Positions 27,921 to 59,947 of a stretch of 64,000 bases of DNA are shown piece after piece. Below the pieces are notes generated by a model. That model ran no database searches. It saw only the letters and a list, made by a program, of their open reading frames with translations, and was not told the DNA's origin. Within the stretch, counting starts at the first letter, position 1. Every line of letters begins with the position of its first letter. The stretch is taken from NCBI RefSeq assembly GCF_016863135.1, contig NZ_BOOH01000021.1, positions 1 through 64,000 on the forward strand. Reading direction: 5' to 3'. The translations under genes and the position numbers were made by a program. The DNA is from Planobispora longispora. Lineage in GTDB: Bacteria; Actinomycetota; Actinomycetes; Streptosporangiales; Streptosporangiaceae.

Positions 27921-27992
27921 GGGCGCTTAGCTCAGCGGTAGAGCGCTCGCCTTACAAGCGAGATGTCACTGGTTCGAACCCAGTAGTGCCCA
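27921..27992 (+). tRNA. tRNA-Val (anticodon TAC)
   Basis: Cloverleaf: acceptor arm GGGCGCT/AGTGCCC with one G-U pair, D-arm GCTCAGCGGTAGAGC, anticodon stem CTCGC/GCGAG with loop CTTACAA (TAC), and T-arm ACTGG-TTCGAAC-CCAGT. CCA is not complete in the DNA (ACA). Its 3' half is duplicated at 29771, so it was used as an integration site. Confidence 0.95.
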
Positions 27993-27993
27993 C
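27947..27993 (+). repeat. Attachment-site copy 1 (tRNA 3' half, attL)
   Basis: The 47 bases from the anticodon stem to the tRNA end recur at 29771-29817 with one mismatch, in the anticodon (A here, G there). A direct repeat of a tRNA 3' end is the classical footprint of site-specific integration. Confidence 0.85.
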
Positions 27994-27999
27994 AACAAT

Positions 28000-28035
28000 G
28001 CCCCTGGCCTGCACGGACAGGCCAGGGGCGCCGTG
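28000..28035 (+). terminator. Rho-independent terminator after tRNA-Val
   Basis: Perfect 12-bp stem GCCCCTGGCCTG / CAGGCCAGGGGC around a six-base loop (28000-28029), followed by GCCGTGTTTT. The same CCTGGCCTG/CAGGCC core recurs after the duplicated tRNA end at 29819. Confidence 0.9.
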
Positions 28036-28206
28036 TTTTCAGGGGGGTGTCGAGCGTTCACCGCTCGGTGAGCACTCGCTTAACGGGCTATCGCTCGTAC
28101 ATTTCCACTGTGGATGAGAAATGCTGCAGCCGTCCGGCTCAGGAGCGGGACCTTTGCTGAGGGTCGGTGAAGGTATGGCTGATCGGGTTCCGGGCGGTCG
28201 TGGCGG

Positions 28207-29466
28207 CTACGGGTGTGTCTCCCAGAGAGTGCTTACCGGGACGGCCAGCATGCGGTCTCCGAAGGAGAAGGTGTGGGCGCCGGTGTGCAGGACCAGTCCG
28301 GCGACGAAGTCGGGGCCGATGCGCTCGGCGAGGTGACGAAGTCCTTTGAAGTCCTCCGGCCGCACGGTGGACGCGGCCTTGACCTCGATGCCCACCACTT
28401 GGCCCTGGCGGGTCTCCAGGACGGCGTCGACCTCCACCTTGTCCTTGGTCCGGTAGTGATAGAGCTCGACCAGGGTGTCTGACCAGGTCGTCTGCCTGGC
28501 CAGCTCCATGAGGACGAACCCTTCCAGCAGAGGGCCGAACGCGGAACCCGGCCGGAGCAGGCCCCGGGCGTCGGCGCCGAGCAGGTTCGCGGCCACACCC
28601 GAGTCGACAAAGGCGATCTTGGGGGTGTGGACGGCCCGACTGCTGATGTTCTTCGACCAGGCGGGAACACGCTTCACCAGGAAGACCTCTTCCAGAAGCG
28701 CCAAGAACCTCGCGGTCGTGGTGCCAGGCAACCCGAGATCACGGCTCAGCGCTTGGATGACGAGCAATTGGCCGGATCTGGCCGCGAGCAGTTTGATCAA
28801 CGCGCGTAGTTCCGCGGTGCGCTCGATCTCCGACAGCCGCATCACATCACGGTTGATCAGGTCGCCGACGTAGGAGTCGAAGAACCGTTGCCTGCGACGG
28901 GCACTGGTGCGGGCGACCGCCTCGGGGTAACCGCCGCGTACCAGGCGCTCGGTGTAGTCAGCGCGGGTCAGCTGGGAAGTGTGCCGTAACTCGGGCCCTT
29001 GGGCGAAGACCGCATCGATGAACCCATCGGGTCGCCCGTCGATCTCCCCCTGCGCGAACGGCCAGAGTTCGATGGTCTCCATCCGTCCCGGCAGGGTGTC
29101 GGGTAGCCCACGCAGCGCGAGGAGACGAGAGGAGCCGGTGAGTAGATACCTACCGGGCCTCGGGTCGGCATCCACCTGGGATTTGATGGCGAGCAGCAGT
29201 TCGGGGGCCCGCTGAATCTCGTCGATGACCATCCGCTCCGGAAAATCGACGAATCCGCTGGGGTCGCTCAGCGCCGCCTGCCGGGTCAATGGGTCGTCGA
29301 GATCACGCCACTCGGTGTCTCCAGCCTTGGCGAGCTGCCGGACCAGAGTGCTTTTGCCTGACTGTCGGGCGCCGTTGACCAGGACGACGCGGGTATCGGC
29401 TAAAGCGTCTGTGACGGCCTGCTCCGCGTGACGTCGGACCAGGTGCCCCATAGGTGTGGTGACCAT
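28207..29466 (-). CDS. AAA ATPase with DUF4143 domain
   Basis: 419 residues. Walker A NGARQSGKST (near residue 32), Walker B MVIDEIQRAPELL, sensor-like YLLTGSSRL (AAA_14 domain), then a C-terminal DUF4143 (nuclease-like fold) with ELYHYRTKDKVEVDAVLE and GIEVKAASTVRPEDF. The D/E-V-D...E.K spacing resembles PD-(D/E)xK nucleases. Members are common on mobile islands; proposed links to defence or toxin systems are unproven. Sole gene between the tRNA and the duplicated att site; composition is slightly less GC-rich than neighbours. Confidence 0.88.
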   Translation of the reverse strand: MVTTPMGHLVRRHAEQAVTDALADTRVVLVNGARQSGKSTLVRQLAKAGDTEWRDLDDPLTRQAALSDPSGFVDFPERMVIDEIQRAPELLLAIKSQVDADPRPGRYLLTGSSRLLALRGLPDTLPGRMETIELWPFAQGEIDGRPDGFIDAVFAQGPELRHTSQLTRADYTERLVRGGYPEAVARTSARRRQRFFDSYVGDLINRDVMRLSEIERTAELRALIKLLAARSGQLLVIQALSRDLGLPGTTTARFLALLEEVFLVKRVPAWSKNISSRAVHTPKIAFVDSGVAANLLGADARGLLRPGSAFGPLLEGFVLMELARQTTWSDTLVELYHYRTKDKVEVDAVLETRQGQVVGIEVKAASTVRPEDFKGLRHLAERIGPDFVAGLVLHTGAHTFSFGDRMLAVPVSTLWETHP

Positions 29467-29657
29467 ACGCTCATCATGTCAGAGGCGGTGAGATAGACGC
29501 CATGATCGCGGTGAGATAGTCGCTGATTGAATGGTGCGATGGACGCTGATGCAATGGTGGATTGGTCGGTGGTACGCAGCCATCCCCAAAAGAGATTCGA
29601 AGCTCCGGTCGGTGGGGGAGCACCGAGGGGTGACCCGCACCCTGGGGGCTGTGTCCT
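29467..29657. other. Non-coding stretch inside the first island segment
   Basis: No credible frame. It begins with two near-copies of GGTGAGATAG (about 29488-29520), spaced 28 bases apart, upstream of the ATPase gene, and lower GC than the chromosome. Nothing else recognised. Confidence 0.4.
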
Positions 29658-29817
29658 GAGTGACCAACTGGGTGACAACGACTGTGGACGGGGTTGGACA
29701 ACGACGGACAGCCATGGATCGTAGCCGCAGGTCAGAGGCGATATCGATCCTGATGGGAGATCCGTTCGGATCGCCTTGCAAGCGAGATGTCACTGGTTCG
29801 AACCCAGTAGTGCCCAC
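29658..29817 (+). repeat. Attachment-site copy 2 with element-side flank (attR A)
   Basis: 29771-29817 repeats the tRNA 3' half (46 of 47 bases). The preceding 113 bases (from GAGTGACCAACTGGGTGACA) form the element arm that recurs, diverged, at 31976 and 35881. Shared blocks include GGTGACAACG, ATCGTAGCCGCAGGTCA and CGGATCGCCTT. The flank is absent beside the intact tRNA, as expected for DNA just inside an integrated element's far end. Confidence 0.85.
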
Positions 29818-29818
29818 C

Positions 29819-29862
29819 GAAGCCTCCTGGCCTGGTAAAACAGGCCGAGAGGTCTTCGTTTT
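29819..29862 (+). terminator. Terminator hairpin after the duplicated tRNA end
   Basis: GAAGCCTC...GGCCTG pairs with CAGGCC...GAGGTCTTC around GTAAAA, followed by GTTTTCG. It probably is the original terminator of the tRNA gene, displaced by integration. Confidence 0.75.
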
Positions 29863-30030
29863 CGATCAGCCACAGGTTGGCTACGTCGCTCAGGCAGCCA
29901 CCGCCTATGAGACGGTCCTCTCGCCGGCCGCGGAGTCACTGACCGGATGGCGGACATCGGCGTCATCGTCGACGACTGAGTGGAGACCGCTCACCCCCTC
30001 CGGTGAGCGGCCTCCACGTTGTACGGCCCC

Positions 30031-30648
30031 CTACCTGACCAGGTACCAGGCTCCATCGGCCTTGACGCTCACGTATCGGACACCAGCGGGGAGAACAACC
30101 TTCCCGCTGGTCTTGCCGACTTTGTTGACAAGCAGGTGAGGATTCCCTGCAGAGCCGAAAGCGTGGATCGCGAAATGGCCGGCACCGGAGTGGCGGTAAC
30201 GCATTGTCTTCAGACCCCTCACCGTGGTGGGCAGCTTCAGGACCCGGTCTCCGGACAGGCGGATCGTGCGGGTCTTCCACAGCGGCGCGGAGGTGATCGG
30301 CTTGACCTCCACCCGCCAGTTGCCGTCCGCGTTGATCTCGAACGCCGAGGTCTTGTGCCAGTTGTAGAGGTTGTAGACGATCGTGCCGGAGTAGGCGCCG
30401 ATGTGGTTGACGTGCAGGTCGTTCTTGCCGCCGCCGGGCCTGAGGGACCAGACGGCGAAGTTCATCTCACCGTCGTGGGTGATTTTCAGGATGCCGCGAG
30501 TCTTCGTCGCCGTGATCCGGAAGACGTCGTCGCCGGACCCTTCGACGACCTTCGTGGACTTCTGGGCGGGCGTGGCCGCGGCCGGCGGAGCAACGAACAA
30601 GGCGGCGGGGAGCAGGACGAGAGCGACGAGCGCGCGATGCAGGCGCAT
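30031..30648 (-). CDS. Secreted protein with two tandem beta-rich domains
   Basis: 205 residues from ATG 30648 (GGGAGA six bases upstream). Sec signal peptide ends near PPAAATPAQ. Two related modules of about 80 residues follow: both contain a GxLK.TxRxHxGxxxFA core, a LHVNHIGxxSG / LLVNKVGKTSG core and end in ADGNWRVEV / ADGAWYLV. The modules look like beta sandwiches used in binding at the cell surface. No catalytic motif is seen. Second-segment cargo of the tRNA island; function unknown. Confidence 0.72.
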   Translation of the reverse strand: MRLHRALVALVLLPAALFVAPPAAATPAQKSTKVVEGSGDDVFRITATKTRGILKITHDGEMNFAVWSLRPGGGKNDLHVNHIGAYSGTIVYNLYNWHKTSAFEINADGNWRVEVKPITSAPLWKTRTIRLSGDRVLKLPTTVRGLKTMRYRHSGAGHFAIHAFGSAGNPHLLVNKVGKTSGKVVLPAGVRYVSVKADGAWYLVR

Positions 30649-30837
30649 GGAGTGTCTCCCGGGGGCAGAGAGGTGGACGGGAGAGGAGACGCCCGGGATG
30701 TGCGCTGGGTTCACGTCTTATATCAGAACGACCTGGTGCTGTGACTAGAAACGATCACAGGGTTGGCGTGCAGGACGTTCCGGCCGGTTGGATGGACGCT
30801 GATCACATTCGATCAGCGCTCGGGAGGCCAGGCGACC

Positions 30838-30960
30838 CAACCGGTCAAGGTCCGCAGATTCACCGACCAAGAAGGACAGAAACTGCAGGGGATCGTGCGA
30901 CGCGGCACGACCGGCACGGTGCGCTACCGGCGGGCGATGATCCTGCTGACCTCGGCCGGC
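30838..30960 (+). pseudogene. IS630-family transposase N-terminal fragment
   Basis: The translation VKVRRFTDQEGQKLQGIVRR then GTTGTVRYRRAMILLTSAGG matches the N-terminal HTH entry of actinobacterial IS630 transposases. The homology stops right after SAGG, and neither the catalytic domain nor terminal repeats remain. Confidence 0.75.
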
Positions 30961-31150
30961 GGCCTCAAAGCGCAGCCGCCCACGTTTGGCGCGATGCTCG
31001 GCGGTCAGTCCACCGCCCCCGCCGTACCTCAGGCCTCCGGCATAGACGGTCCTGCGCCGGTCGTCACTACCCTTCAGCGCTGTAACTTCAGCCTCTCGAG
31101 CTCAGATCCTCTGGCGGTGGAAGGCGCCTCAGGCGTTGAGTGGAGTGATG

Positions 31151-31885
31151 ATGTCTCATAGAACAACGGTGTTGCTCTCTTTTCTGATGATCATGGGAGC
31201 GGTCGGATGCAGCGTTTCCGGATTCACCGATACGACCTACCGGTGTGGTGACCAGGAGGTTTCGCTGCAAGCACTGAAGGAGGCGAGATCGGCGAGCGAG
31301 CTCGGTCCGGACGGCCGGGAGGCGTTGAAGGGACAAGAGGTGCGGCCGATTGAGGATCTTCCCTCCTGGAGGATCATCGAAGAGAGCGACGCCCGGGTGG
31401 CTCTCATGCGAGAGCTAGACGTGTCGCACGAACAGGGGCAAGGGACGGTGGGCGCTCATGCCCTCCTGGTGGTCGAACGGTTCGGTCCTCCGGGGAATGA
31501 CGGTCGCCCTGGCTGGCACCTGAGGTCGTCCGGTCACTGTGATCTGCGAAAAGACCTCGGTTCCCTGAGAGCAGCTGAAGTGACCTTGGATCCCGCTGTG
31601 CCACCGGGCGTAGAGGCGCGGAAGGTGCACGTTCTGGTCACCGAGCGAGGATGCGCCAGCGGCAAGCGGGCGGACGGTCGCGTACGGCTGGCCGGCATTG
31701 AGCAGACTCCGGCTGAGGTGCGTCTGGTCATCGGCGTCGAACCTCTTGCTTCGGAAGGAGTCCGGACGTGCCAGGGGAATCCCCCGACGCCGTTCACCGT
31801 CGAACTCGACGAACCACTCGGTGACCGCGCTCTCATCGACGCGTCGGTCCACCCGGCTCGGCGGATTACCGGCGGTAGACAGTGA
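31151..31885 (+). CDS. Putative lipoprotein of unknown function
   Basis: 244 residues. ATG 31151 has GGAG five bases upstream; ATG 31148 is too close to it. Signal peptide with lipobox-like MGAVGC (Cys at about 20), then a mature part with four to five Cys (YRCGD, GHCD, RGCASG, RTCQG) and a TPxTVELxEPLGDR-like C-terminus. Lower GC than chromosomal genes. No recognised domain. It lies between the IS630 fragment and the second att-like relic. Confidence 0.65.
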   Translation: MSHRTTVLLSFLMIMGAVGCSVSGFTDTTYRCGDQEVSLQALKEARSASELGPDGREALKGQEVRPIEDLPSWRIIEESDARVALMRELDVSHEQGQGTVGAHALLVVERFGPPGNDGRPGWHLRSSGHCDLRKDLGSLRAAEVTLDPAVPPGVEARKVHVLVTERGCASGKRADGRVRLAGIEQTPAEVRLVIGVEPLASEGVRTCQGNPPTPFTVELDEPLGDRALIDASVHPARRITGGRQ

Positions 31886-31975
31886 TCAACGAATACGTGG
31901 TCGGGGTTCCTTCGGCACTCGTGCGACGAAGCCCATCGAAGACGGGTGTGATAAGGCCATGTCCAAGGAAGTCGC

Positions 31976-32112
31976 TGAGTGAGCGACTGGGTGTGACAAC
32001 GGCCGTAGACACGGCTGGACGCTGGTGGACGGCCGGAGGTCATAGCCGCAGGTCAGGATCGGTACCGGTACTGGTCGGGGACCTGCTCGGATTGCCGCTT
32101 GGCGACATCTCG
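31976..32112 (+). repeat. Second element-end relic (attR B, decayed)
   Basis: Shares with 29658 and 35881 the ordered blocks GAGTGAGCGACTGGGTG, TGACAACGGCCGTAGACAC, CATAGCCGCAGGTCAGG, GGTCGGGGACCTG and CGGATTGCC, ending in CGACATC where the tRNA-derived core should be. The tRNA part is nearly lost. Confidence 0.65.
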
Positions 32113-32171
32113 CTTCGTCGGCGAGTCTCCATACGATGAGGCGAGAGCTGGTCCTGGCGAACGTACCTGGT

Positions 32172-32324
32172 TCAGGCGACCTTGACGGAGCGCGGGCCGA
32201 CGCTGATCGTCACATCGAGGTGTCCACCCAGCGCGGTTGCGTAGGCGCGGAGGGTTTCCCGTTCCATGGCGTCGAGATCGCCGCTTTCGATCTGAGAGTG
32301 CGTTAAGCGAGCTAATGCGCCTTT
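32172..32324 (-). pseudogene. C-terminal remnant of an XRE-type antitoxin-like regulator
   Basis: Only the C-terminal region survives: LTHSQIESGDLDAMERETLR and AYATALGGHLDVTISVG, like the end of HigA-type XRE proteins (SQIExGDLxxxxxxTLRAYxxALGG). The HTH upstream is missing or out of frame; the reading frame continues 54 codons upstream into unrelated sequence. No partner toxin is seen. Confidence 0.55.
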
Positions 32325-32509
32325 CGTCGTTGTGGTTGGTTGGATGAGGTCTGCTGGTCGGTCAGCCGCCGTTCGGCCTACGGGCGCGGCTGGCGCGGAC
32401 ACCGGACCGCTCGTGAGCAGGTTCTCTGCGTATACCGCGACTGGGCTGGTCACGGTCGGCCCGGTGTCCGCGGCGGCGGGCTTCACGCCGTAGGGCTTTA
32501 CACGGATAC

Positions 32510-32998
32510 CTACTGTCGGAGGTCCTGTCGAAGATCGGTCGTCGCGGGACCGGCTGGGACGGCGGGGGTTCGAGGCCAGGTCCAGGCGGAGCGCAGGATG
32601 AAGGCCAGGAGCAGCACCTCGACTCCGATGGAAAGGCCGTAGAAGAAGGCCCAGTCCCAGGACTCCCCTGCCGCGTTGACCACCGAGTAGGGGATGTAGA
32701 GCAATGCGACAACGAGGTTCGTGGCGCGGTTCATCCGGGCGGGCAGCGTCATGGAGAGCATCACCATCAGGGCCGGGATCGCCACGGACGCGAGCATCAT
32801 GGTCAACAACGTCGGGCCGATGTCGAACTCAAAGACGACGCCGGCGCGGAGGTTGTCGATGACGCCGGGCTTGTGGAGGTGGAAGTAGTCGACGTAGATG
32901 TAGAGGAACATGAAGCTGGTCCACGCGGCGGCGAGCTTGGCCTGCACGGGGACCGGCGGGTTGTCGAACAGGTTCGGGGTTTTCGTTCGGATGGTCAT
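32510..32998 (-). CDS. DUF6326 family membrane protein
   Basis: 162 residues from ATG 32998, four membrane helices (about 20-38, 61-83, 93-110, 122-142). Conserved FMFLYIYVDYFHLHKPG entry and ESWDWAFFYGLSIGVEVLL end. Divergent from a TetR-family gene across a region with a large palindromic operator, so its expression is probably TetR-controlled. Such proteins often accompany TetR/MerR regulators; transport or sensing role unproven. Confidence 0.8.
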   Translation of the reverse strand: MTIRTKTPNLFDNPPVPVQAKLAAAWTSFMFLYIYVDYFHLHKPGVIDNLRAGVVFEFDIGPTLLTMMLASVAIPALMVMLSMTLPARMNRATNLVVALLYIPYSVVNAAGESWDWAFFYGLSIGVEVLLLAFILRSAWTWPRTPAVPAGPATTDLRQDLRQ

Positions 32999-33276
32999 CG
33001 GTTCTTCTTTCGAGAGGAGCGGTCCCTCCGCCGGAGTGGCGGCAGGGATGTACCGAGGCCGCGCCCACCTGGACGAGCACATCGCCTCGACCGGGCATCG
33101 GTAGCCCTGACCTCGGACGACTCGAGCGCCGAGGGCAGGCCGTAGCGGTGCTGGTCGGCGGTCCGCATCGTTGTCGCCCCGGCCGGACTCGCCCCCGGCG
33201 CCAGGCGTGCTCCGGCACTCGATCGCTGTTCGATTCCCACAGAAGCCTCCTCGCGTCCGAGCTACGACTCTCGCTG
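32999..33276. other. Leader region of the DUF6326 gene
   Basis: About 280 bases between the operator and the DUF6326 start without a convincing reading frame on either strand. It would form a long 5' leader for DUF6326 if transcription starts at the operator. Confidence 0.4.
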
Positions 33277-33309
33277 CTTCGTACATCGTACGTCGTACGT
33301 TGTACGAAG
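33277..33309. promoter_or_regulatory. 33-bp palindromic TetR operator
   Basis: CTTCGTACAT at the left is mirrored by TTGTACGAAG at the right through repeated CGTACG units. Thirty of 33 bases are symmetric; only one pair and the central base break it. A further half site, GTACGCTGTAC, follows at 33316-33326. Repeating GTAC/CGTACG units would accept two TetR dimers. It lies 69 bp before the tetR start and upstream of the divergent DUF6326 gene. Confidence 0.8.
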
Positions 33310-33378
33310 AAGTAGTACGCTGTACCATGACCGTGCGCTGGACGATTGTCAAGGCGTTCGAGGGAGCGAGGAGACCCG

Positions 33379-34053
33379 TTGTCTGCGAGGGAACGACGCC
33401 AGGTCGCGTCAGATGCGGGGCTGAGCAAGGAGCGGGTGGTGGCCGAGGCGGTCCGGCTCGCCGACCGCGAGGGGGTCGGCGAGCTGAGTATGCGCCGGCT
33501 GGCTCGCGCGCTCGGCGCGGGCGCGATGTCGCTCTACTACTACGTGGCGAGCAAGGAGGAGTTGCTGGACGCCATGATCGACGTCGTGTTCGAGGAGATC
33601 GAGCTCCCGCCCGAAGAGACCGACTGGCAGTCAGCGATGCGACGTCGGGCGGTATCCGCCCGGCAGGTTCTCGCACGCCACCCGTGGGCGATCGGCCTGA
33701 TGGAGTCGCGGACATCGCCGGGGCCCGCGAACCTCCGCCACCGCGAAGCGGTCACCGCCTGCCTGCGGAGGGCTGGCTTCCCGGTCTTGACGGCGACGCA
33801 CGCCAACTGGTTGCTCGACAGCTACGTCTACGGTTTCGCCCTGCAGGAAGCCAGCCTGCCGTTCGACACCGCCGATGAGTTCGCGGACATGGCCGAGGAT
33901 GTCTTCCTGCCCCAGCTTCCTGTTGACGAGTTCCCCTACCTCAACGAGTCCGCCGCGGCGCTCGTCGCTGCCGGCTTCGACCCGGCGGAGGAGTTCATTT
34001 TCGGCCTCAACCTCGTCCTAGCCGCCCTCGAGCCCCTGAGAGTGCCTACGTGA
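33379..34053 (+). CDS. TetR-family transcriptional regulator
   Basis: 224 residues. The TTG at 33379 is chosen because GAGGAG lies five to six bases upstream; an earlier TTG at 33346 has no ribosome site. HTH: LSKERVVAEAVRLADREGV, LSMRRLARALGAGAMSLYYYVASKEELLDAMID. The C-terminal part is of the TetR_C type (tetracyclin-repressor-like) with HPWAIGLMESRTSPGPANL. Likely ligand unknown; likely targets are itself and the DUF6326 gene. Confidence 0.9.
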   Translation: MSARERRQVASDAGLSKERVVAEAVRLADREGVGELSMRRLARALGAGAMSLYYYVASKEELLDAMIDVVFEEIELPPEETDWQSAMRRRAVSARQVLARHPWAIGLMESRTSPGPANLRHREAVTACLRRAGFPVLTATHANWLLDSYVYGFALQEASLPFDTADEFADMAEDVFLPQLPVDEFPYLNESAAALVAAGFDPAEEFIFGLNLVLAALEPLRVPT

Positions 34054-34139
34054 GCCTCCATCCGTGATGTCGTTATGTGATCGTGTGGATTTGTGGTGTT
34101 ACCGCCAGTCTGCGGGTCCAGTTGTGCTGGGATGGCGCG

Positions 34140-34938
34140 GTGACTGAGCGCAAGCCGTACCCGAGCGACTTAACCGACGCTCAGCGGGCGTTGATCGAAC
34201 CGGTCCTCACGGCATGGAAGGCCGCGCACCCCTCGGTCAGCGGCCACGAAGGCAACCATGCGCTGCGGGAGATCGTCAACGCGATCCGCTACCAGGGACG
34301 AACCGGCGTCCAATGGGACTATCTTCCCGTGACCTGCCGCCCAAGGGCGCGACGTACTACTACTTCGCCAAATGGCGCGACGACGGCACCGACGAGACGA
34401 TCCACGACCTGTTGCGCTGACATCTGCGCGAGCAGAAGAAGCGATTAGCCGACCCGAGCCTGGTCGTGCTGGACACCCAAAGCGTCCACGTCGCGGCCGG
34501 GGTTCCCGCCGAAACGACCGGCCGGGACGTCGCCAAGAAGGTGCCGGGCCGCAAACGAGGTCTGGCCGTAGACGTGCTGGGGCTGGTCATCGCGGTCGTC
34601 GTGCTCGCGGCCTCAGCTCACGAGAACGCCGCCGGGATCGCCCTGCTGGACCGCCTCGATACCCGCGAACAGGCCCTGACCCGCCAGATCGAGCAGACCC
34701 AGACCGGCATCGACTCCCTGACCGCGCGGCTCAGTGAACTCAGTCAGGAGGCCGAGCATCTGCGGATCAGCCGCAAGACGCTCCTGTCTCTCGCTGAAGC
34801 GGACCCCGCTCCGGCCGAACCGGATGCGCCGCCGCTGGTCGGCTTCGATCATCCCGACTACCAGCAGATCCTCACCGTCTTCAGCGAGACCGGCGGCTCG
34901 CTGCGCGGGCTGCCGCCGTTCTATCCCGTAAGCGTTTG
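34140..34938 (+). pseudogene. IS5-family transposase pseudogene fused to an unrelated coiled-coil segment
   Basis: Starts GTG with TERKPYPSDLTDAQRALIEP and continues to QWDYLP; a frameshift near 34325 leads to LPPKGATYYYFAKWRDDGTD, then an in-frame stop at about 34418, and further DDE-type sequence (VVLDTQSVHVAAG, KKVPGRKRGLAVDVLGLV). From about 34660 the frame becomes a coiled coil (REQALTRQIEQTQTGIDSLT) plus YQQILTVFSETGGSLRG, the core of a small winged-helix protein common in Streptomyces. That fragment also breaks off. At least two recombination events are needed. Confidence 0.75.
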
Positions 34939-34943
34939 AAGGG

Positions 34944-35771
34944 TTACGTGCTTTGCCCGAGTCTCGCCCGGGCCTGGGTCATCACGTCGGGATGGGGATC
35001 ATCAGCGAGAATCCGCACGATGGCTTCCGGTGTCGTGGGCCATACGGCCAGCCACCATCGCACGTTGACCGATCGATCACGGGCAAGGCGCTGCAACTCG
35101 TCATACGGGAGTCGCTCGGACTGCACTGCGGCCGCGCGGACGGCCATGGACTTGTCGTTGGCGAGAAGGCGATGTTGCTCTGTCGTGGTGCGCGGGTTCT
35201 GAGTGGCGCCGATGCGGACCTTGGGGTCGGGGTCGGCTATCAGGGCGGTGAGGAGGTCCGGATCATCGGTGTACGCTGCCAAGCCTGCTCGGACGGCCGG
35301 AGAGGGGTCCGCAGCGAGAGCCGTGTTCGTCTCCTCGTCCAGCCCACCTCTCCCGGCGAGCAGTCGGCGCAGGTCCTCATCGGCGGATCGGCAGATGACG
35401 CGGCGGACTTCGACGTCGGCGCCCGGATGGTCCGGCAGCGACCACCGGACTGACCCGTGAGGGTCGTCCACCAGAATGATCAGCACGTCAGGCGGGCAGG
35501 CAGGGTTCTCGACGAGTGTCTGGCGGGTCTTCAGATCCGGGTCCCGGGCGAGTTCACGCAGCAGTTCACCGGGTGCGTCGGTCCGAGCCGCGAGGGCACG
35601 CCTGACCGTGCGGGAAGGATCTGCCGCCATGGCTCGGAGGACCTCTGGAGGCGCGGCGGGATCGTTCGCCACGGTCAGCCGGATACGGACTCGCTTGTCA
35701 CGGGCGCGTACGGTCAGGTGAGCCGTGTCCGTACCGCCGTTGGTTTCTGGAGTCCCTGGTTCTTGCTGCAT
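34944..35771 (-). CDS. Leucine-rich-repeat-variant (LRV/HEAT-like) protein
   Basis: 275 residues made of about nine repeats of roughly 24 residues with the pattern LA.DPD..VR..LA..P..P...L..LA (for example LARDPDLKTRQTLVENPACPP, LIADPDPKVRIGATQNPRTT). AAGGA lies eight bases before the ATG. No enzyme domain, no signal peptide: a solenoid scaffold for protein or nucleic-acid binding. Last gene of the third island segment, five bases from the IS5 pseudogene end. Confidence 0.85.
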   Translation of the reverse strand: MQQEPGTPETNGGTDTAHLTVRARDKRVRIRLTVANDPAAPPEVLRAMAADPSRTVRRALAARTDAPGELLRELARDPDLKTRQTLVENPACPPDVLIILVDDPHGSVRWSLPDHPGADVEVRRVICRSADEDLRRLLAGRGGLDEETNTALAADPSPAVRAGLAAYTDDPDLLTALIADPDPKVRIGATQNPRTTTEQHRLLANDKSMAVRAAAVQSERLPYDELQRLARDRSVNVRWWLAVWPTTPEAIVRILADDPHPDVMTQARARLGQST

Positions 35772-35880
35772 CTGTCAGTCCTTCATCGACCATGTGCGTC
35801 GCATGATCGCAGCAGTCACGGATGAAAGGAGTCTGGACACTCGGCCGGAGGAGATCCCTGCCTGTAGGGATCTCTTTCCG

Positions 35881-36012
35881 GATGACCGGCTGAGTGACAA
35901 CGACCGTGGATGCGACTGGACACCGGTGGACGACGAGAGATCGTAGCCGCAGCTCAGGCGCGGTATCGGTCCTGGTCGGGGACTTGTCGAGATTGCCTTG
36001 TAAACGAGATGC
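35881..36012 (+). repeat. Third element-end relic (attR C, decayed)
   Basis: Carries the same ordered blocks as 29658: TGAGTGACAACGACCGTGGA, GGTGGACGACGAGAGATCG, TAGCCGCAGCTCAGGCGCGG, CGGTCCTGGTCGGGGACTTG and ATTGCCTTGTAAACGAGATG. The last block is the start of the tRNA-derived core; downstream of GAGATG the match is lost. Marks the probable right end of the island. Confidence 0.72.
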
Positions 36013-36097
36013 CGCTCCGCACACCGGCATCGGTCTTCGGTCCGGCACACGCCCACCGGGATGAACGCGTGCCGGTTCGTTCAAGCCGGCAAGCGCG

Positions 36098-37450
36098 TCA
36101 AAGAAGCGTGAGCGCCTTGGCCACGCCCGGGTCGCGCCCAGTGGCCAGGTCGAGGGCGGTCATGGGGGCGTAGTGGTCGACCGGTACGCCGATCGTGTCG
36201 ATGATTTCGCGGGCGGGGCCGAGGTGCCGGACCTTGGGCAGGATCAGGACGCTGCCGTCGTCGAGGAGGTATCCCTCGCCGGGGCCGGAGACGGCCCCGG
36301 CCGTGCGGGTCCCGACGAGGGTGCCCAGGCCGTTGCCCTTGACCGCCGCGCTGAAGTCATCGCAGGCCGAGGCGCACGCGCGGTCGGTGAGGACGACCAG
36401 GCGCGAGCCGAGCAGCGGGACGCTGTCGTCGGTCCGGTTGGGCACGCAGTCGCCCTTGAGCGGGCAGAAGTAGCTGGTGACCTTGCCGTGCGCGAACGCG
36501 CCGAGCAGCCGGGTCACCTCGCGGGGTGACCCGCCGCCGTTGCCGCGCAGGTCGAGGACCACCGCCTTCGGCTTGCCCTGCAGCTTGGCGATGACCTGGT
36601 CGGCGGCGCCTTCGTAGAATCCGGGCAGCTGGACGTAGACGGCGCCGCCGGGGAGCGTCTTCGATGTCACCTTCGGGGGCTGCCGCGTGACGGGGCCCTG
36701 CCTGATCTCGACGGTGCGGGTCCGTCCCGTCGTCGGGCGCTTGAGCGTGAGCCGTACCGGGTCGGAGGCGAAGGCGTCGATGATGCCGTCGTTGACGGTG
36801 TCCCCGATGACCGTCGGCACGCCGTTGACCTTGAGCATGATGTCGCCGGGCCGGATGTCGGCCTTGGCGGCGGGGCTGCCGGGCAGGACCCGGGTGATGA
36901 ACAGCGGCGGCCGGGCCGCCGGGTCGAACTGCGGGCCCTGCCCGGCCGACACGCCCACGATGCCTGTCCCGACCGGCCCGCCCTCCGGCGGCGGGGTCGG
37001 CCTGACCCAGCGGGCGTGGTTGTCGTGGAGTCCGGCGACCATGCCGGTGATCGCGGCGCGCAGCGCGGCGGGATCGCCGGTGCCGAGGACCTTCGCGAAG
37101 GCGGCCCAGTCGGTGTCGCGGTCCCCGGTCAGGGCGGGCAACTGGAGGTCGGCCCGGTCGGCGCCGCGCCGTATCAAATCCTGGGTGTAGGCGGCCAGGG
37201 CGCTCTTCAGCAGTGCCCTGGAATCCATGGCCGGGCCGCTGTAGTAGTTGTCCAGCACGCAGAAGTACGCCTGCCGGAGCGTGTTCACCGAGGTCGGCGG
37301 CACCGATTGCGGCGGCGGCCCCGTGACGGCGGCGCAGTCGGCGCCCGGGGTGGAGACCGGCTGAGGGGTGAGGGCGGACGCAGACGCGGACATGGAGCAG
37401 GCCGTCACCAGGACGGCGGCGCAGAGGGTTCTGATCATGGCCGCCAGCAT
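36098..37450 (-). CDS. S41-family C-terminal processing peptidase lipoprotein with PDZ domain
   Basis: 450 residues (ATG 37438 gives 446 and is equally possible). Signal with lipobox VTAC; helical N-domain; PDZ at about 150-240 (LFITRVLPGSPAAKADIRPGDIMLKVNG); S41 core with VVLDLRGNGGG and the Ser-containing DRACASACDDFSAAVKG. The lysine normally four residues after the Ser-helix start is represented in SAAVKG. Secreted protease acting on envelope proteins. First complete chromosomal gene right of the island. Confidence 0.88.
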   Translation of the reverse strand: MLAAMIRTLCAAVLVTACSMSASASALTPQPVSTPGADCAAVTGPPPQSVPPTSVNTLRQAYFCVLDNYYSGPAMDSRALLKSALAAYTQDLIRRGADRADLQLPALTGDRDTDWAAFAKVLGTGDPAALRAAITGMVAGLHDNHARWVRPTPPPEGGPVGTGIVGVSAGQGPQFDPAARPPLFITRVLPGSPAAKADIRPGDIMLKVNGVPTVIGDTVNDGIIDAFASDPVRLTLKRPTTGRTRTVEIRQGPVTRQPPKVTSKTLPGGAVYVQLPGFYEGAADQVIAKLQGKPKAVVLDLRGNGGGSPREVTRLLGAFAHGKVTSYFCPLKGDCVPNRTDDSVPLLGSRLVVLTDRACASACDDFSAAVKGNGLGTLVGTRTAGAVSGPGEGYLLDDGSVLILPKVRHLGPAREIIDTIGVPVDHYAPMTALDLATGRDPGVAKALTLL

Positions 37451-37514
37451 GGCCGGGGGCCGGTTACACGGCGGTGAACGCCGCTGTTACCGCCATTCGT
37501 GGCGGAACGCCGGC

Positions 37515-37790
37515 ATGCGGGTTCCGGTGGTTGAGGACGAACGCGATCTGGCCGGTCCCGTGGCGGTGGGGCCGCGCCGCCATGCCATGGCCGTCGGCGT
37601 GGCGTACGACGGGGCCGCTGCGGTGGCGCGGCCGGCGGTGCACGACTACGACGTTCTCGTGCTGGATCGGGACCTGCCCGAGATGCACGGTGACCCCGTC
37701 TGCCGTGAGCCGGTGATGCGCGGGAGCCGTACGCGGACCCTGCTGACGGCGGCGGCATCGGTGCCGAAGCGGGTGGCGGGCCTCTTCCCC
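37515..37790 (+). pseudogene. Decayed response-regulator receiver domain
   Basis: MRVPVVEDERDLAGPVAV, VAYDGAAAVARPAVHDYDVL and VLDRDLPEMHGDPVCREP align with the functional regulator at 13324 (MRVLIAEDE, VIVLDRDLPVVHGDDVCRH), with the phosphoacceptor Asp retained. The sequence breaks after LLTAAASVPKRVAGL; Lys loop and DNA-binding domain are absent. A frame continues to 37874 without homology. Confidence 0.8.
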
Positions 37791-41029: not shown

Positions 41030-41071
41030 GTCCGCGAGTGACCGATCGGATGACGACGACCGTGGGCGAGG

Positions 41072-41881
41072 TCAGAGCGTGAAGGGATTCTCGCCGGATG
41101 CGACGGCCGAGAACAGCGCGGACCCGAACGTGTCGTACAGGTGCCGCTGGAGGGCGGGCCCGAAGGTCACCCGCGCGACGCCGAGCGCGGCGAGTTCGGC
41201 CAGCGACAGCTTCCCGAGCCCGTACGCGACGTTGACGGGACCGGGGATGCCCTCGGTCAGGACCCGGATCACGCCGGGATCGCCGACGCCGAGCGGATAG
41301 ACGCAGTCGGCGCCGGCTGCGAGATATCGGGCGCCGCGGTCGAGCGTGGCGGTGAGCTGGGCCTCCGGCGGCCCGGACCGGCGCAGGAACGAGTCCGTAC
41401 GCGCGTTGACGACCAGGTCCACGTTCAGCGATACCGCCGCCTCGCGCACCGCGGCCAGGAAGTCCGCTTGCTCAGCGATGTCGATCATGTTTCCGTCCGG
41501 CGGGTTCGAGTCCTCCAGATTCAATCCGACGGCCCCGGTCGCGGCGAACCGCTCGACCAGCTCGGCCGGCGCGAGCCCGTAGCCGCGCTCGAAGTCGACG
41601 GTCACCGGCAGGCTCACCGCCCGGACGATCCGTTCGGTCGCGGCCAGCACCTCTTCGACCGGCGCCGCCTCACCGTCGTCGTAGCCGAGCACCGCGGCCG
41701 TGGCGGCGCTGCTCGTGGCCACGGCCGGCAGCCCGGCCGCCTCGACCATCCGGGCCGAGGCCGCATCCCAGGCGTTGGGCAGCACGAGCGGATCACCGGC
41801 CACGTGCAGCCTGCGGAGCGTGGCGGCCTTCTCCCGGGACGGCGAAGCATCCCGGGCTTCCGGGTGGGACAGGTCGCTCAT
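41072..41881 (-). CDS. Isocitrate lyase/PEP mutase family enzyme
   Basis: 269 residues from ATG 41881 with GGAGGA five bases upstream. TIM-barrel markers: LPNAWDAASARMVEAAG, VTVDFERGYG, GAVGLNLEDSNPPDG (metal-site Asp/Glu), LVVNARTDSFL and GADCVYPLGVGD. It lacks the KKCGH loop of isocitrate lyase, fitting the carboxyphosphonoenolpyruvate mutase/oxaloacetate-hydrolase-like branch. Substrate unknown. Confidence 0.9.
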   Translation of the reverse strand: MSDLSHPEARDASPSREKAATLRRLHVAGDPLVLPNAWDAASARMVEAAGLPAVATSSAATAAVLGYDDGEAAPVEEVLAATERIVRAVSLPVTVDFERGYGLAPAELVERFAATGAVGLNLEDSNPPDGNMIDIAEQADFLAAVREAAVSLNVDLVVNARTDSFLRRSGPPEAQLTATLDRGARYLAAGADCVYPLGVGDPGVIRVLTEGIPGPVNVAYGLGKLSLAELAALGVARVTFGPALQRHLYDTFGSALFSAVASGENPFTL

Positions 41882-42038
41882 TGAGTCCTCCATGTCATGG
41901 GCGTCTTCTTGGACAACGTCACTCACGATGCGCGCCCGGCCGTGGGAACGGCGGCGATCCGGCGGTGGAACCGGCGGATCCCGCCGTGCCCGCGGCCGGA
42001 CCGGTCACGACTGGACCACCGGGCCACGGGACCTTTCT

Positions 42039-43481
42039 CTACGGGACCTTCTCACCCTGAGGCGCGGTGCCTGCCGCCTGCGCCGGTGCGGTCACGGCAG
42101 TCAGCCGTCCGCCGGGCATGCCGAGTGCGATGAGCATGCCGGCGAACGCGAAAGCGGCGACCGCGCCCATCGCCGCGGTGAAACCCTCGCCGAACTCCCC
42201 GGCTGACGCGTAACCCCCGGCACCCGCGAAGACGGCGACCGTGACCGCGACGCCGAACACCCCACCGAAGATCCGTAGCGTCATGAACGCGCCGGACGCC
42301 TGACCGATCTCCTGCGGCCGCACTGCTCCGACCACCGCCTTCTGCGCCGCGGGCATGGCCATGGTCAGTCCGGCGCCGCCGATGATCAGCGCGGGCAGCA
42401 GCTCGAGATAGTCCGTACCGGTGTCGGCGACCACGGCGATCCAGCCCATGCTCAAGGTCTGGAGCAGCAGCCCGCCGACCACGAACGTCCGCTCGCCGAC
42501 CTTGTCGGCCAACCGGCCGGCGATCGGCGCGCACACCATCAGCGTCGCGGTCCACGGCATCAACCGCAGGCCGGCGCCGAGGGGTCCTTCACCGTGGACG
42601 GTCTGGAAGTACTGCGCGAGGAAGAACAGCGTGCCGTACAGCGAAGCGAAGACGCAGAAGTTCGCCGGGTTGGCCGTGGCGAACGCCCTCAGCCGGAAGA
42701 AGCGCATCGGCAGCATCGGCGCCTCCGTGCGTCGTTCCCAGAGCACGAAGGCGATCACCAGCACGACGCCGAGCACCAGCGCGCCCAGTACCTCCGCGCT
42801 GCTCCAGCCCGCCGCGTTTCCGCGGACCAGACCCCAGACGACGCCGAACGCGCCCAGGGTCACGAGCGCGACCCCGCCCAGGTCGAGCCGGCTGTCCGGG
42901 CCGGTGACCTCATCGACGCGCCGCACCGTGAGCAGGATCGCGATCACTCCGATCGGCAGGTTCAGCCAGAAGATCCACTGCCAGGCCAGCTCTTCGGTGA
43001 CGACACCGCCGATGAACGGGCCGCCGAACGTCGCCAGGCCGGTGATGCCCAGGTACAGCCCCATCGCCTTGCCCCGCTGCCGGGGCGGGAACATCGCGCT
43101 GACGAGGGTCAGCGACAGCGGCAGCACCAGCGCGGCGCCGGCGCCCTGGAACGCCCGGGAGGCGATCAGAACGCCGATGTCCGGTGACAAGGCGCAGGCC
43201 ACCGACGCGACGGTGAACAGCGCCAGTCCGACGACGAACACGCGGCGGCGGCCGAACCGGTCACCCAGCGCCGCTCCCGTCAGCAGCAGCACCGCGAACG
43301 TCAGGCTGTAGGCGTTGACGGTCCACTCGAGTTCTTCGATCGACGCCGCCAGGTCCTGGCGGATCGTGTTCAACGCCGTGGTCACGATCAGGCTGTCCAG
43401 GGACATCATGAACGATGCCAGCGAAGCAAGCCCCAACACCCAGGCCTGCTTGGACGTCATTCCTCCGCCGCCGCCACTCAC
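42039..43481 (-). CDS. DHA2-type MFS drug exporter (EmrB/QacA)
   Basis: 480 residues, 14 predicted helices. Motif A-like GAALGDRFGRRRVFVVG, motif D1 MMSLDSLIVTTALNTI and motif C-like GLATFGGPFIGGVV. GTG start with AGGAGGAG six bases upstream. Follows the ECF sigma gene by 34 bp, so the sigma factor probably drives its own expression together with this exporter. Confidence 0.93.
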   Translation of the reverse strand: MSGGGGGMTSKQAWVLGLASLASFMMSLDSLIVTTALNTIRQDLAASIEELEWTVNAYSLTFAVLLLTGAALGDRFGRRRVFVVGLALFTVASVACALSPDIGVLIASRAFQGAGAALVLPLSLTLVSAMFPPRQRGKAMGLYLGITGLATFGGPFIGGVVTEELAWQWIFWLNLPIGVIAILLTVRRVDEVTGPDSRLDLGGVALVTLGAFGVVWGLVRGNAAGWSSAEVLGALVLGVVLVIAFVLWERRTEAPMLPMRFFRLRAFATANPANFCVFASLYGTLFFLAQYFQTVHGEGPLGAGLRLMPWTATLMVCAPIAGRLADKVGERTFVVGGLLLQTLSMGWIAVVADTGTDYLELLPALIIGGAGLTMAMPAAQKAVVGAVRPQEIGQASGAFMTLRIFGGVFGVAVTVAVFAGAGGYASAGEFGEGFTAAMGAVAAFAFAGMLIALGMPGGRLTAVTAPAQAAGTAPQGEKVP

Positions 43482-43515
43482 CGTTTCTCCTCCTGTTCAG
43501 GTTCTTCGCGGCCGA

Positions 43516-44586
43516 TCAGGCGCGCAGCGATCGCGGAAGTCCGAAGACCGTCAGAAGCGAGTTGTCGATGAATCGGGTCAGGACGGAAATCCGATCGCCG
43601 GTCAGGGTGAGTACGAGGACTCCGTGCGCGTGCATGATCGGGGTCCGCGGGTCACGCAGATAGCAGCCGAACGCCGGTTGGCCGTTCGCCCGCGTCGGGA
43701 TCAGCACGTATCTGAGGCCGTTGCGCAACGCGACGGTGGCCAGGAAGTTCCGGACGGCGTCAAGGCCCTGATATTCCAGCGGCAGCGGCGGCATGGTCAG
43801 CCACGCGTCGTCCGTCATCAGAGCCACGATCTCATCGACGTCTCCGGCCTCGAACGCGCGGATGAAAGCATCCACGATCCGGCGTTCTTCCGGCGAGTTC
43901 GGCAGCGGGGCGCTCTCCCGGTCGGAACCCGGAAGCTCGTGCGCCAGCGCGGCCCGTGCCCGTTTCAGCGCGCTGGTCACCGCGTTCTCGGTCGTGCCGA
44001 GAATTTCCGCCGTCTCGACGGCCCGGAACGCCAGGACGTCCCGCAGCACCAATACGGCTCGCTGCCTCGGCGGCAATCGCTGCAGCGCCGCCAGGAACGC
44101 CAGCGACACCGACTCTCTGACCTCGTATCGCGCCTCCGGTCCGGGCAGGCGGTCGGCGATCTCGTCGAGCAGCACATCGGGGTACGGCTCCAGCCAGCTC
44201 GGTTCCGCCCGGAGGCGCGACGGCTCAGGCAACGGGACCTCCGGCTGATAGGCCGCATATCCCTGCGGGCGGCGGGTACCGGCCCGCAGCGCGTTGAGAC
44301 AGCGGTTGGTCGCGATGCGGTAGAGCCACGTCCGCACCGACGCGCGTTCCGCGTAGCCGTCGATCCCGCGCCATGCGGCCAGCAGCGTCTCCTGCAGCAG
44401 ATCCTCGGCGTCCTGCACCGAGCCGAGGATGCGGTAACAGTGCACCTGGAGCTCACGCCGGTACGGCTCGACGAGCTCGCGGAACGCCTCACCGTCCCCG
44501 CTTCGCGCCAGCACCAGCAGATCGCCGTCCGGGCGCCGGGCACAGGCCGAGGCGCCGGGTTCCCCGCTCGGCGGAATCCCTCGCAT
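43516..44586 (-). CDS. ECF sigma factor with C-terminal SnoaL-like domain
   Basis: 356 residues from ATG 44586 (GGGAG six bases upstream; a longer reading adds a basic leader). Sigma region 2 (about 24-90, YRILGSVQDAEDLLQETLLAAWRGI split by the loop, TWLYRIATNRCLNALR), region 4 (LPPRQRAVLVLRDVLAFRAVETAEILG), then an NTF2/SnoaL domain (VDAFIRAFEAGDVDEIVALMT, HAHGVLVLTLTGDRISVLTRF). In such sigmas the SnoaL domain tunes activity in place of an anti-sigma factor; none is encoded nearby. Confidence 0.92.
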   Translation of the reverse strand: MRGIPPSGEPGASACARRPDGDLLVLARSGDGEAFRELVEPYRRELQVHCYRILGSVQDAEDLLQETLLAAWRGIDGYAERASVRTWLYRIATNRCLNALRAGTRRPQGYAAYQPEVPLPEPSRLRAEPSWLEPYPDVLLDEIADRLPGPEARYEVRESVSLAFLAALQRLPPRQRAVLVLRDVLAFRAVETAEILGTTENAVTSALKRARAALAHELPGSDRESAPLPNSPEERRIVDAFIRAFEAGDVDEIVALMTDDAWLTMPPLPLEYQGLDAVRNFLATVALRNGLRYVLIPTRANGQPAFGCYLRDPRTPIMHAHGVLVLTLTGDRISVLTRFIDNSLLTVFGLPRSLRA

Positions 44587-44704
44587 GGTGGCTCCCTCTC
44601 TCCCGGGTATCTCTCGTGGGGATGGACACCGCCACCGCCGGAAAGTGGTCGGCCGGCGCCGAATTTTCTGCGAGCTCATCCGCCGTCTTTGACGCCGATG
44701 CCCT

Positions 44705-45268
44705 TCAGTCCTCACCGGATTCGATGCGGTAGGAGCACAGTTCCAGCATCTCCGGGGAGAAGCGGAGGCCGGTGATCCTGCTCGCCAGGGCGAAGGACCT
44801 CTCGATCGGGAAGCGGATGTCCTCCGAGTCGTCGATGTCGTGGTCGGGATCCAGGCCGACCTCGCGCATCTCCCCGACGAAGCGGTCCGGATCGGTGCCC
44901 GACCGCTCCTCAGGGAACATCGGGTCGAACCAGACGACCGGCTCGCCGTCGACGATGTAGGCGAAGGTGTCCGAGGCGTAGTCGTGGCGGGAGACCGACA
45001 CGATCTCGGTTCCCCGCCCGACCCGGGTGTATGTCTCGGGGTCGGCGGCGAGCTGCCATCCTCCCGGTTCGACGGTCAGGGTCCAGTCGCCGATCTTCGC
45101 GGTGCCGACGTAGTCGGCCGGGTCGCACTCGTCCGCGGTGCTCACGTCCACGCTGAAGCGGCGGAGGACCTCGTCCGGGGTGAGGTCCCGGACGAAGGAC
45201 ACGCAGTAGATCTCATCCAGGTCCTCGCAGCCGGAGAGCCAGCGGAATTCCTCGGGGCACTCGGTCAC
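44705..45268 (-). CDS. DUF6461 family protein
   Basis: 187 residues from GTG 45268 with AAGGAG six bases upstream. Conserved opening FRWLSGCEDLDEIYCVSFVRDLTPDEVLRRF-type segment, then IGDWTLTVEPGGWQLA and a late ALASRITGLRFSPEMLE. Cytosolic and acidic. The family is common in actinomycetes, often in several copies; function unknown. Confidence 0.8.
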   Translation of the reverse strand: MTECPEEFRWLSGCEDLDEIYCVSFVRDLTPDEVLRRFSVDVSTADECDPADYVGTAKIGDWTLTVEPGGWQLAADPETYTRVGRGTEIVSVSRHDYASDTFAYIVDGEPVVWFDPMFPEERSGTDPDRFVGEMREVGLDPDHDIDDSEDIRFPIERSFALASRITGLRFSPEMLELCSYRIESGED

Positions 45269-45441
45269 TGCCGCTCCTTCGATCATGTGGACGGCATGAT
45301 CGCAGCGGCCGCCGACAAATCCCACATGTGCAAGCGGTGCGATGACCGGGGCCGGCCACCGATCTTCGCGGCGCGGGGACATCGAGATCGGCCGCCATGG
45401 ACCGCTTCGCGTTCTCCCCCTTCAGGGAAGCCGGGGAGGCG

Positions 45442-59866: not shown

Positions 59867-59947
59867 GGAGTCCTCACTTCCGCCGGTATCCGGTTGGAGG
59901 ACAATGGTACGGATCCCGCGAAGTGAGGCATCGCCCCGGCGCGCGGG

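Follow-up and report, generated by a model that had tools for sequence, protein, structure and literature searches.

What has accumulated behind the only tRNA gene in a 64,000-nucleotide stretch of the soil actinomycete Planobispora longispora (contig NZ_BOOH01000021.1, positions 1 to 64,000; hereafter the window), and by which route did it arrive? An earlier note on this DNA had read the region behind this tRNA-Val gene as three related elements that landed one after another in the same attachment (att) site. The present analysis points to a tRNA-anchored accretion array (probability roughly 0.8), i.e., a row of units resembling cis-mobilizable elements (CIMEs), which would derive from integrase- and RepSA-bearing elements related to actinomycete integrative and conjugative elements (AICEs) of the pSAM2 type and may have been mobilised in trans. 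Serial landing at one tRNA was supported by relatives, which show further copies of the same arm plus tRNA half 1.1-12.7 kb apart, and the count of exactly three elements had to be raised to at least four visible units (an AAA-ATPase unit, a B unit, a HigBA remnant, and a HEAT unit).

Repeated arms and cores behind tRNA-Val

ARAGORN identified tRNA-Val(TAC) at 27921-27993 (forward strand) as the sole tRNA in the window; it is the integration target, with its 3' half (27947-27993) as the shared core. As previously claimed, a second copy of this half lies at 29771-29817 with a single mismatch (46/47). The left flank of this copy A, an arm of about 113 bp, is repeated in alignment at 31993-32096 (B) and 35894-35997 (C), with identities of 70% (A-B) and 79% (C-B) over 104 nt and 74% (A-C) over 134 nt. 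Scored with an arm-plus-core profile of 162 positions, built on 37 full arm-plus-core sequences including A and excluding B and C, the three relics reached 154 (A), 90 (C), and 70 bits (B) against 8.4 bits for the best of 20 dinucleotide-shuffled windows, confirming the diverged recurrence of the flank. All three relics are on the forward strand. Alignment and profile place relic A, comprising the arm and the 47-bp core, at 29656-29817; profile and sister comparison place relic B, an arm whose core is mostly gone via a deletion of about 107 bp, at 31975-32096; and the profile places relic C, an arm with the first 24-26 core positions followed by a junction, at 35880-36016. When relic A was used as a query against the 8.84-Mb genome of the strain itself, the top ranks were A, the tRNA, C (E 3.9e-17), and B (E 8e-10), followed by a core-only match in fifth place (E 2e-4) and seven others at E 0.7 or worse, the arm being confined to the tRNA-Val locus in this genome.

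The order in which the elements landed had been sought in the divergence of the three relics. Over the arm alignment, the arms of A, B, and C are 69-74% alike, and A and C reach 79.6% and 78.8%, respectively, to one arm from genus g16; arm B reaches 77.4% to an arm of sister genome G002 in the same alignment and 86.6% over 97 bp to an arm of sister G003. Since the three arms are about as similar to arms from other genomes as to one another, divergence cannot date the landings here, a warning against using att divergence as a clock. The simplest reading would be that the arms had already diverged before landing. Position may give the order instead, with C first and A last, provided that every landing took place at the tRNA.

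The right flank of the tRNA itself (27994-28090, forward strand) consists in alignment of a hairpin and then sequence like the left end of a HigBA unit, and was probably brought by the last-landed element. The tRNA 3' half in the window ends in AGTGCCC and that of the tRNA-Val genes of sisters G001 and G002 (loci L056 and L057) in AGCGCCC, the T form being present in 18 of 35 core-only copies. We take the AGTGCCC form to give a G-U pair in the acceptor stem, which may have been rewritten by landing elements.

Arrays and integrases in relatives

Arm matches (E<=1e-4) were detected in 65 of 341 genomes of the family Streptosporangiaceae and in 21 of its 68 genera, a count that is rough in both directions, as some matches are short and the clear arm of G002 was missed. 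Among 394 genomes of the class, arm-covering matches occurred only in the family of the window, and five outside genomes matched the core alone, with at most two candidates scored per genome in both surveys. The 21 named stretches with the arm motif include Streptosporangium, Sphaerisporangium, Microbispora, Nonomuraea, Microtetraspora, and Planotetraspora. The motif was also found in stretches of Pseudonocardia, Paractinoplanes, and a Micromonosporaceae metagenome-assembled genome (MAG), at 34-58 bits in the profile; the restriction of the arm to the family is therefore not strict. A phage or plasmid origin was rejected, as IMG/VR held no exact pattern match and the plasmid and phage collections gave only core matches.

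Forty stretches picked from the matches, together with the four loci of the window's genus, made up a set of 44 loci from 39 genomes. In 28 of the 44, a core-only (tRNA-type) copy is accompanied by at least one arm (18 with at least two arms, 8 with at least three), and up to four arms stand in one fetched stretch and five in genome G195 across two stretches. The core-to-core units (n = 37) range from 1,082 to 12,748 bp, with a median of 3,023 bp. A few loci are at other tRNAs, with L112 and L119 at tRNA-Val(CAC). An arm plus core stands behind the tRNA-Val(CAC) gene of L119 (L119:10059-10219), so the arms are not limited to the TAC gene; ARAGORN calls this relic a second tRNA-Val(CAC). Arm matches off the fetched tRNA-Val loci (G018:C7:2018086, G216:C11:1200540, and G031:C1:248380) probably represent elements with other targets.

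In loci L093, L097, L101, L109, and L115, an integrase gene (int) reading towards the tRNA and a GntR-class open reading frame (ORF) adjoin the tRNA, and RepSA-class ORFs were found in four of these five, with none in L115. Pfam scans covered the L093 set and the integrases (Int) of L130 and L116; they returned RepSA (3.8e-166) and GntR for L093, and PF00589 for the L130 and L116 integrases, which are other Int types at the same place. The integrases of L097 and L115 were assigned by sequence similarity. The int frame is open in L097 (391 aa, beside tRNA-Val), L115, L116, and L130, and frameshifted in L093 and L109; the L097 protein presumably carries the R, HxxR, and Y motif. Int stands at the end of the element opposite the arm. 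The arm was also considered as the 3' end of int, an ORF terminating within it in L093, L097, L101, and further loci, and this was rejected because the L093 ORF ending in the arm is a 260-aa protein and not Int; a 260-aa protein ends at the arm in L093, L097, and L101, and the L093 copy shows weak helix-turn-helix (HTH) and DUF5919 matches below the Pfam cut-offs. Among the 82 cores followed on the right by 700 bp of sequence, a tblastn search with four Int queries located an Int C-terminus 49-143 bp to the right of 24, including 7 with full-length coverage (four of which had supplied the queries) and 17 stubs.

In the window, by comparison, the earlier view that all integrases are gone held: none was found at E<=1e-3 with the four Int queries, and the best E in the flanks of the tRNA, A, and B was only 0.069. 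Pfam scans of 19 ORFs between 28.2 and 46.3 kb gave no match to a transfer or integrase family, and no RepSA-class gene was seen in the Pfam scans of window ORFs; the window thus lacks integration and transfer genes, as a CIME does.

A box, GTGACNAWC, is present in 43 of 65 arms. It also lies within 100 bp to the right of 12 of the 82 cores, at exactly 42 bp in 10 of these 12, and three control stretches gave 1/82 each. A two-sided box layout is typical of the arm-type Int sites of lambda-like integrases. For 10 of 48 internal cores, the right flank is found elsewhere within 160 bp behind a tRNA, in 9 cases in another genome; for example, L097 and L103 match over 1,093 bp at 88.7%, beginning with the base directly to the right of the core. 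Such right flanks can be read as belonging to units that would once have been first in line and were later displaced. Moreover, the same combinations of cargo and arm turn up at various array positions and in more than one genus, often at identities higher than those of the flanks, and arms are similar despite unrelated left neighbours. Among cross-genus locus pairs with comparable flanks, which are not independent of one another, 48 of 237 share island DNA (arms masked, >=300 bp), and island identity exceeds flank identity in 33 of the 48, by more than 3 points in 22. In L111 and L115, from different genera, a HigBA-like block is 95.2% identical and the flanks 79.6%.

Accretion, decay, and exchange of units

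CIMEs and accretion have reportedly been treated by Pavlovic 2004, Bellanger 2011, and Zhang & Loria 2017. PMC3218068 and PMC9513070 record tandem AICEs at tRNA genes (Frankia tRNA-Lys and Streptomyces tRNA-Arg), the decay and accretion of AICEs, and an AICE03 located in a tRNA-Val with 46-nt repeats. Compared with the pSAM2 type, the relatives share a tyrosine Int beside the tRNA, a RepSA initiator, and a GntR regulator, and differ in lacking the TraB (FtsK/SpoIIIE) component at the five int-bearing array loci and in that most units have neither int nor rep. In the five int-bearing genomes, PF01580 (FtsK/SpoIIIE) gave 62 matches, all of them away from the array locus, so these int-bearing elements are not complete AICEs. 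CIMEs as defined in PMC5704250 have lost integration and transfer genes and keep their att ends, and the units would resemble them in this and in their tandem stacking; unlike them, the array consists of many 1-3 kb units, each with one gene or operon, which recur across genera at varied positions. The defective AICEs (DAICEs) of Streptomyces (PMC9513070) likewise show tRNA accretion, loss of int or rep, and int remnants between direct repeats, but are defined by a retained traB, which was not found at the array in the five genomes tested.

A literature search, mostly without subscription journals, found nothing on a Streptosporangiaceae tRNA-Val array of small arm-sharing units. The locus is a well-developed, not unprecedented, type of genomic-island hotspot, and the family-wide array of small recurring units with one shared arm looks like a new form of the published AICE/CIME accretion. 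Integron cassette arrays also hold ordered small units (toxin-antitoxin and accessory genes) behind one anchor with an integrase possibly acting in trans, whereas the site here is a tRNA half with a 113-bp arm.

The arms, cores, int stubs, int neighbours, box positions, displaced units, and differing sister states can be joined in one scheme. A tyrosine integrase of int- and RepSA-bearing elements related to AICEs of the pSAM2 type would insert them into the 3' half of tRNA-Val(TAC); with every such insertion, the tRNA would be restored by the element's own 3' half and earlier elements would be pushed outward, such that every displaced element would end in an arm and a tRNA half. Many residents would then lose int, rep, and other functions via internal deletion, in some cases starting inside int, and keep their att ends, leaving CIME-like units that each comprise a single gene or operon (toxin-antitoxin, DUF6461, HEAT, or AAA-ATPase). 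The 113-bp arm would represent one half of attP with arm-type sites bound by Int (GTGACYAACTGGGTGAC), and the other half, with the same box, would be located at the 3' end of int, 39-71 bp to the right of the core. If an Int from a relative entered the cell, it could excise or integrate such units in trans, perhaps still today, and the int gene beside some arrays in relatives is probably what moves the units. In the window, no recognisable int is left, relics B and C are cut, and segments known elsewhere in the genus appear to have been inserted.

Several points weigh against this scheme. The intact parent suggested by the earlier note was found only in parts: relatives with int at the same tRNA exist (the open 391-aa frame of L097), as do RepSA-class and GntR genes, but a wholly intact relative was not demonstrated, the RepSA frame of L097 being split and the int of L093 frameshifted. 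The missing FtsK/TraB domain leaves cell-to-cell transfer unsupported at the five int loci, and no excision, circle, or attP was seen. As many as 58 of the 82 cores have no recognisable int, further int fragments lie away from cores in L057, L098, L111, L116, and L122, and the stub test demanded a C-terminus, such that the retention of this end by stubs is partly built in. The 12 box-bearing right flanks are mutually related and hence not independent cases, and the reverse box occurs at 7/82 cores 100-200 bp to the right. Shared island DNA was limited to 48 of 237 cross-genus pairs, in many of which it is one and the same HigBA unit; in 6 of the 48, island identity is lower than that of the flanks by more than 3 points, and the 40 family loci were selected because they had matches.

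The strongest competitor, whose odds fall somewhat short of even, is plain decay, in which the units are dead remains of full int- and rep-bearing elements that each landed a single time and erode in place, with no mobilisation in trans. The cut relics B and C, the cores without an int remnant, and Streptomyces sites reduced to part of an integrase, cargo, and a pair of direct repeats (PMC9513070) agree with this, yet decay in place fits poorly with the same cargo-arm units at varied array positions and in different genera above flank identity, and with arms that remain alike beside unrelated left neighbours. It is also possible, if rather doubtful, that the shuffled orders were made by homologous recombination between arms and cores, or by transfer of whole arrays, rather than by units inserting one at a time in a site-specific manner: 160-bp direct repeats lend themselves to exchange, and homology between L101 and L103 begins about 130-140 bp right of the core rather than at it. 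L097/L103 and L099/L105 speak for insertion instead, as both pairs match from base 1 right of the core, with a tRNA in one member of the pair and an arm in the other. That the 113-bp sequence is an unrelated dispersed repeat, by chance beside tRNA halves, is very improbable. Arm-like matches off the fetched tRNA-Val loci (e.g., those in G018 and G216) and outside the family lend it something, but 48 arm copies in the fetched loci continue into the core in a fixed register, the class survey (two candidates per genome scored) placed all arm-covering matches in one family, and the strain's own genome offers no other arm match better than E 0.7, so that this refutation proposed in the earlier note was not borne out.

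Accretion of AICE-derived, CIME-like units thus remains the preferred reading. A bolder version of it, put forward only tentatively, would make tRNA-Val(TAC) of Streptosporangiaceae an integron-like anchor for a pool of 1-3 kb integrase-free cassettes with one attP arm, captured, shuffled, and exchanged between genera by AICE-type integrases in trans; equally tentative is the proposal that the cassettes would carry toxin-antitoxin, candidate defence, immunity-like, and regulatory genes. In practice, the marked att arm (113 bp plus boxes) could serve to find integrase-less units that int or traB searches miss, and Streptomyces remnants of such a kind escaped an in silico screen according to PMC9513070. 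The L097 Int and an arm plus core form a pair suited to testing the movement of minimal CIMEs in trans, for which the same paper reports few actinobacterial examples.

Cargo, junctions, and sister genomes

Unit A lies between the tRNA and the full relic A, and the right cores of units B and C are damaged. The cargo of unit A (28207-29466, reverse strand) encodes an ATPase with AAA_14 and DUF4143 domains (Pfam) that matches PADLOC PDC-S01, a candidate defence model (E 1.7e-182), and its DNA is 93-94% identical in sister G002 and in G096 (genus g58) and 87-93% in G060. The interval of unit B (30031-31885) holds two ORFs without a Pfam match (30031-30714, reverse; 31136-31885, forward). The second encodes a 249-aa protein present in 20 of 338 family genomes, its own included; unit B as a recurring cassette was rejected because this protein is not at the fetched array loci of G118, G141, and G263, those of the other 19 genomes that have such loci. 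The cargo of unit C is an LRV/HEAT-repeat protein (34944-35771, reverse strand; Pfam), and 34930-35955, which takes in this gene together with 76 bp from the start of arm C, aligns with L108 (genus g6) over 1027 bp at 85.2% identity; in L108, the block is the first unit behind the tRNA. An NCBIfam scan of ten window ORFs gave no match above cut-offs.

Relics B and C are each cut at a junction. The claim that every relic ends in a decayed start of the core stood for C, which keeps 24-26 positions, and was rejected for B, whose profile match (model positions 1-120 of 162) stops about 7 positions into the core and gives way to DNA of a HigBA unit. From 32094, the window aligns over 207 columns at 91% identity with DNA that begins 66 bp behind the tRNA of G003 (L055:3168-3374), so arm B is fused to a HigBA-like toxin-antitoxin unit, most of the core and about 65 bp, some 107 bp in total, having been lost. 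The truncated left end of this unit occupies 32094-32298 (forward strand), of which 32169-32298 is 80-84% identical to HigBA-like units of L103 and L111, the name resting on HTH_3 and Gp49 matches in relatives. A resemblance to an inverted repeat at 32104-32125 belongs to the left flank of the HigBA unit and was rejected as core. Core C breaks off at about 36005-36016, the point at which an S41/PDZ peptidase segment starts (36008-37580, reverse strand; Pfam and sister comparison). Homology of this segment to three sisters begins at 36008, 36027, and 36085, and in all three it lies on a contig other than that of the tRNA, in a different neighbourhood each time.

Two further segments are of this kind. 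The stretch 32359-34907, with a DUF6326 protein, a TetR regulator, and pieces of an IS5-type transposase (Pfam), is 91-95% identical to segments in G001 (G001:C62) and G002 (G002:C33) that stand in mutually unlike neighbourhoods, so of the foreign-looking blocks described to the left of the relics, not every one is foreign. The segment 37917-40274, with an AraC-type regulator (Pfam), is found elsewhere in G001 and G002 at 92-98%. For all three, the neighbourhood varies among the sisters that hold them, at mostly 91-98% identity, and they look like wandering short segments. Three of them in one island is odd, and misassembly is possible, which would need to have occurred more than once. The island, formerly taken to end at 36012, extends to about 41045, as sequence common to G001 and G003 resumes only at 41045-41071; the right flank beyond it (41045-44674, reverse strand) encodes a phosphoenolpyruvate mutase, a major facilitator superfamily transporter, and a sigma factor (sister alignment, Pfam).

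The genus of the window comprises four genomes, its own and the sisters G001, G002, and G003. All four carry the tRNA with the same left flank, in which the adjoining gene is presumably a ROK kinase, and the contents behind it differ; an empty site was found in none of G001-G003, and none of them matches the state of the window. Behind the tRNA, G001 has the HEAT gene and part of the ATPase gene, with no arm found at its locus. G002 has the ATPase gene, a DUF6461 gene, an arm plus core (L057:5920-6082), and then an Int C-terminal stub, sequence common with the window resuming only at 59936. In G003, HigBA-like genes are followed by a DUF6461 gene and its truncated arm, then by a core with an Int stub behind it, and finally by another arm plus core (L055:8419-8555), 0.2 kb ahead of the resumed common flank. 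ORFs of the DUF6461 cluster stand directly before an arm in four fetched loci (L055, L057, L092, and L107), and another copy lies beyond the island at 44705-45382 of the window, Pfam having been run on the L055, L057, and window copies.

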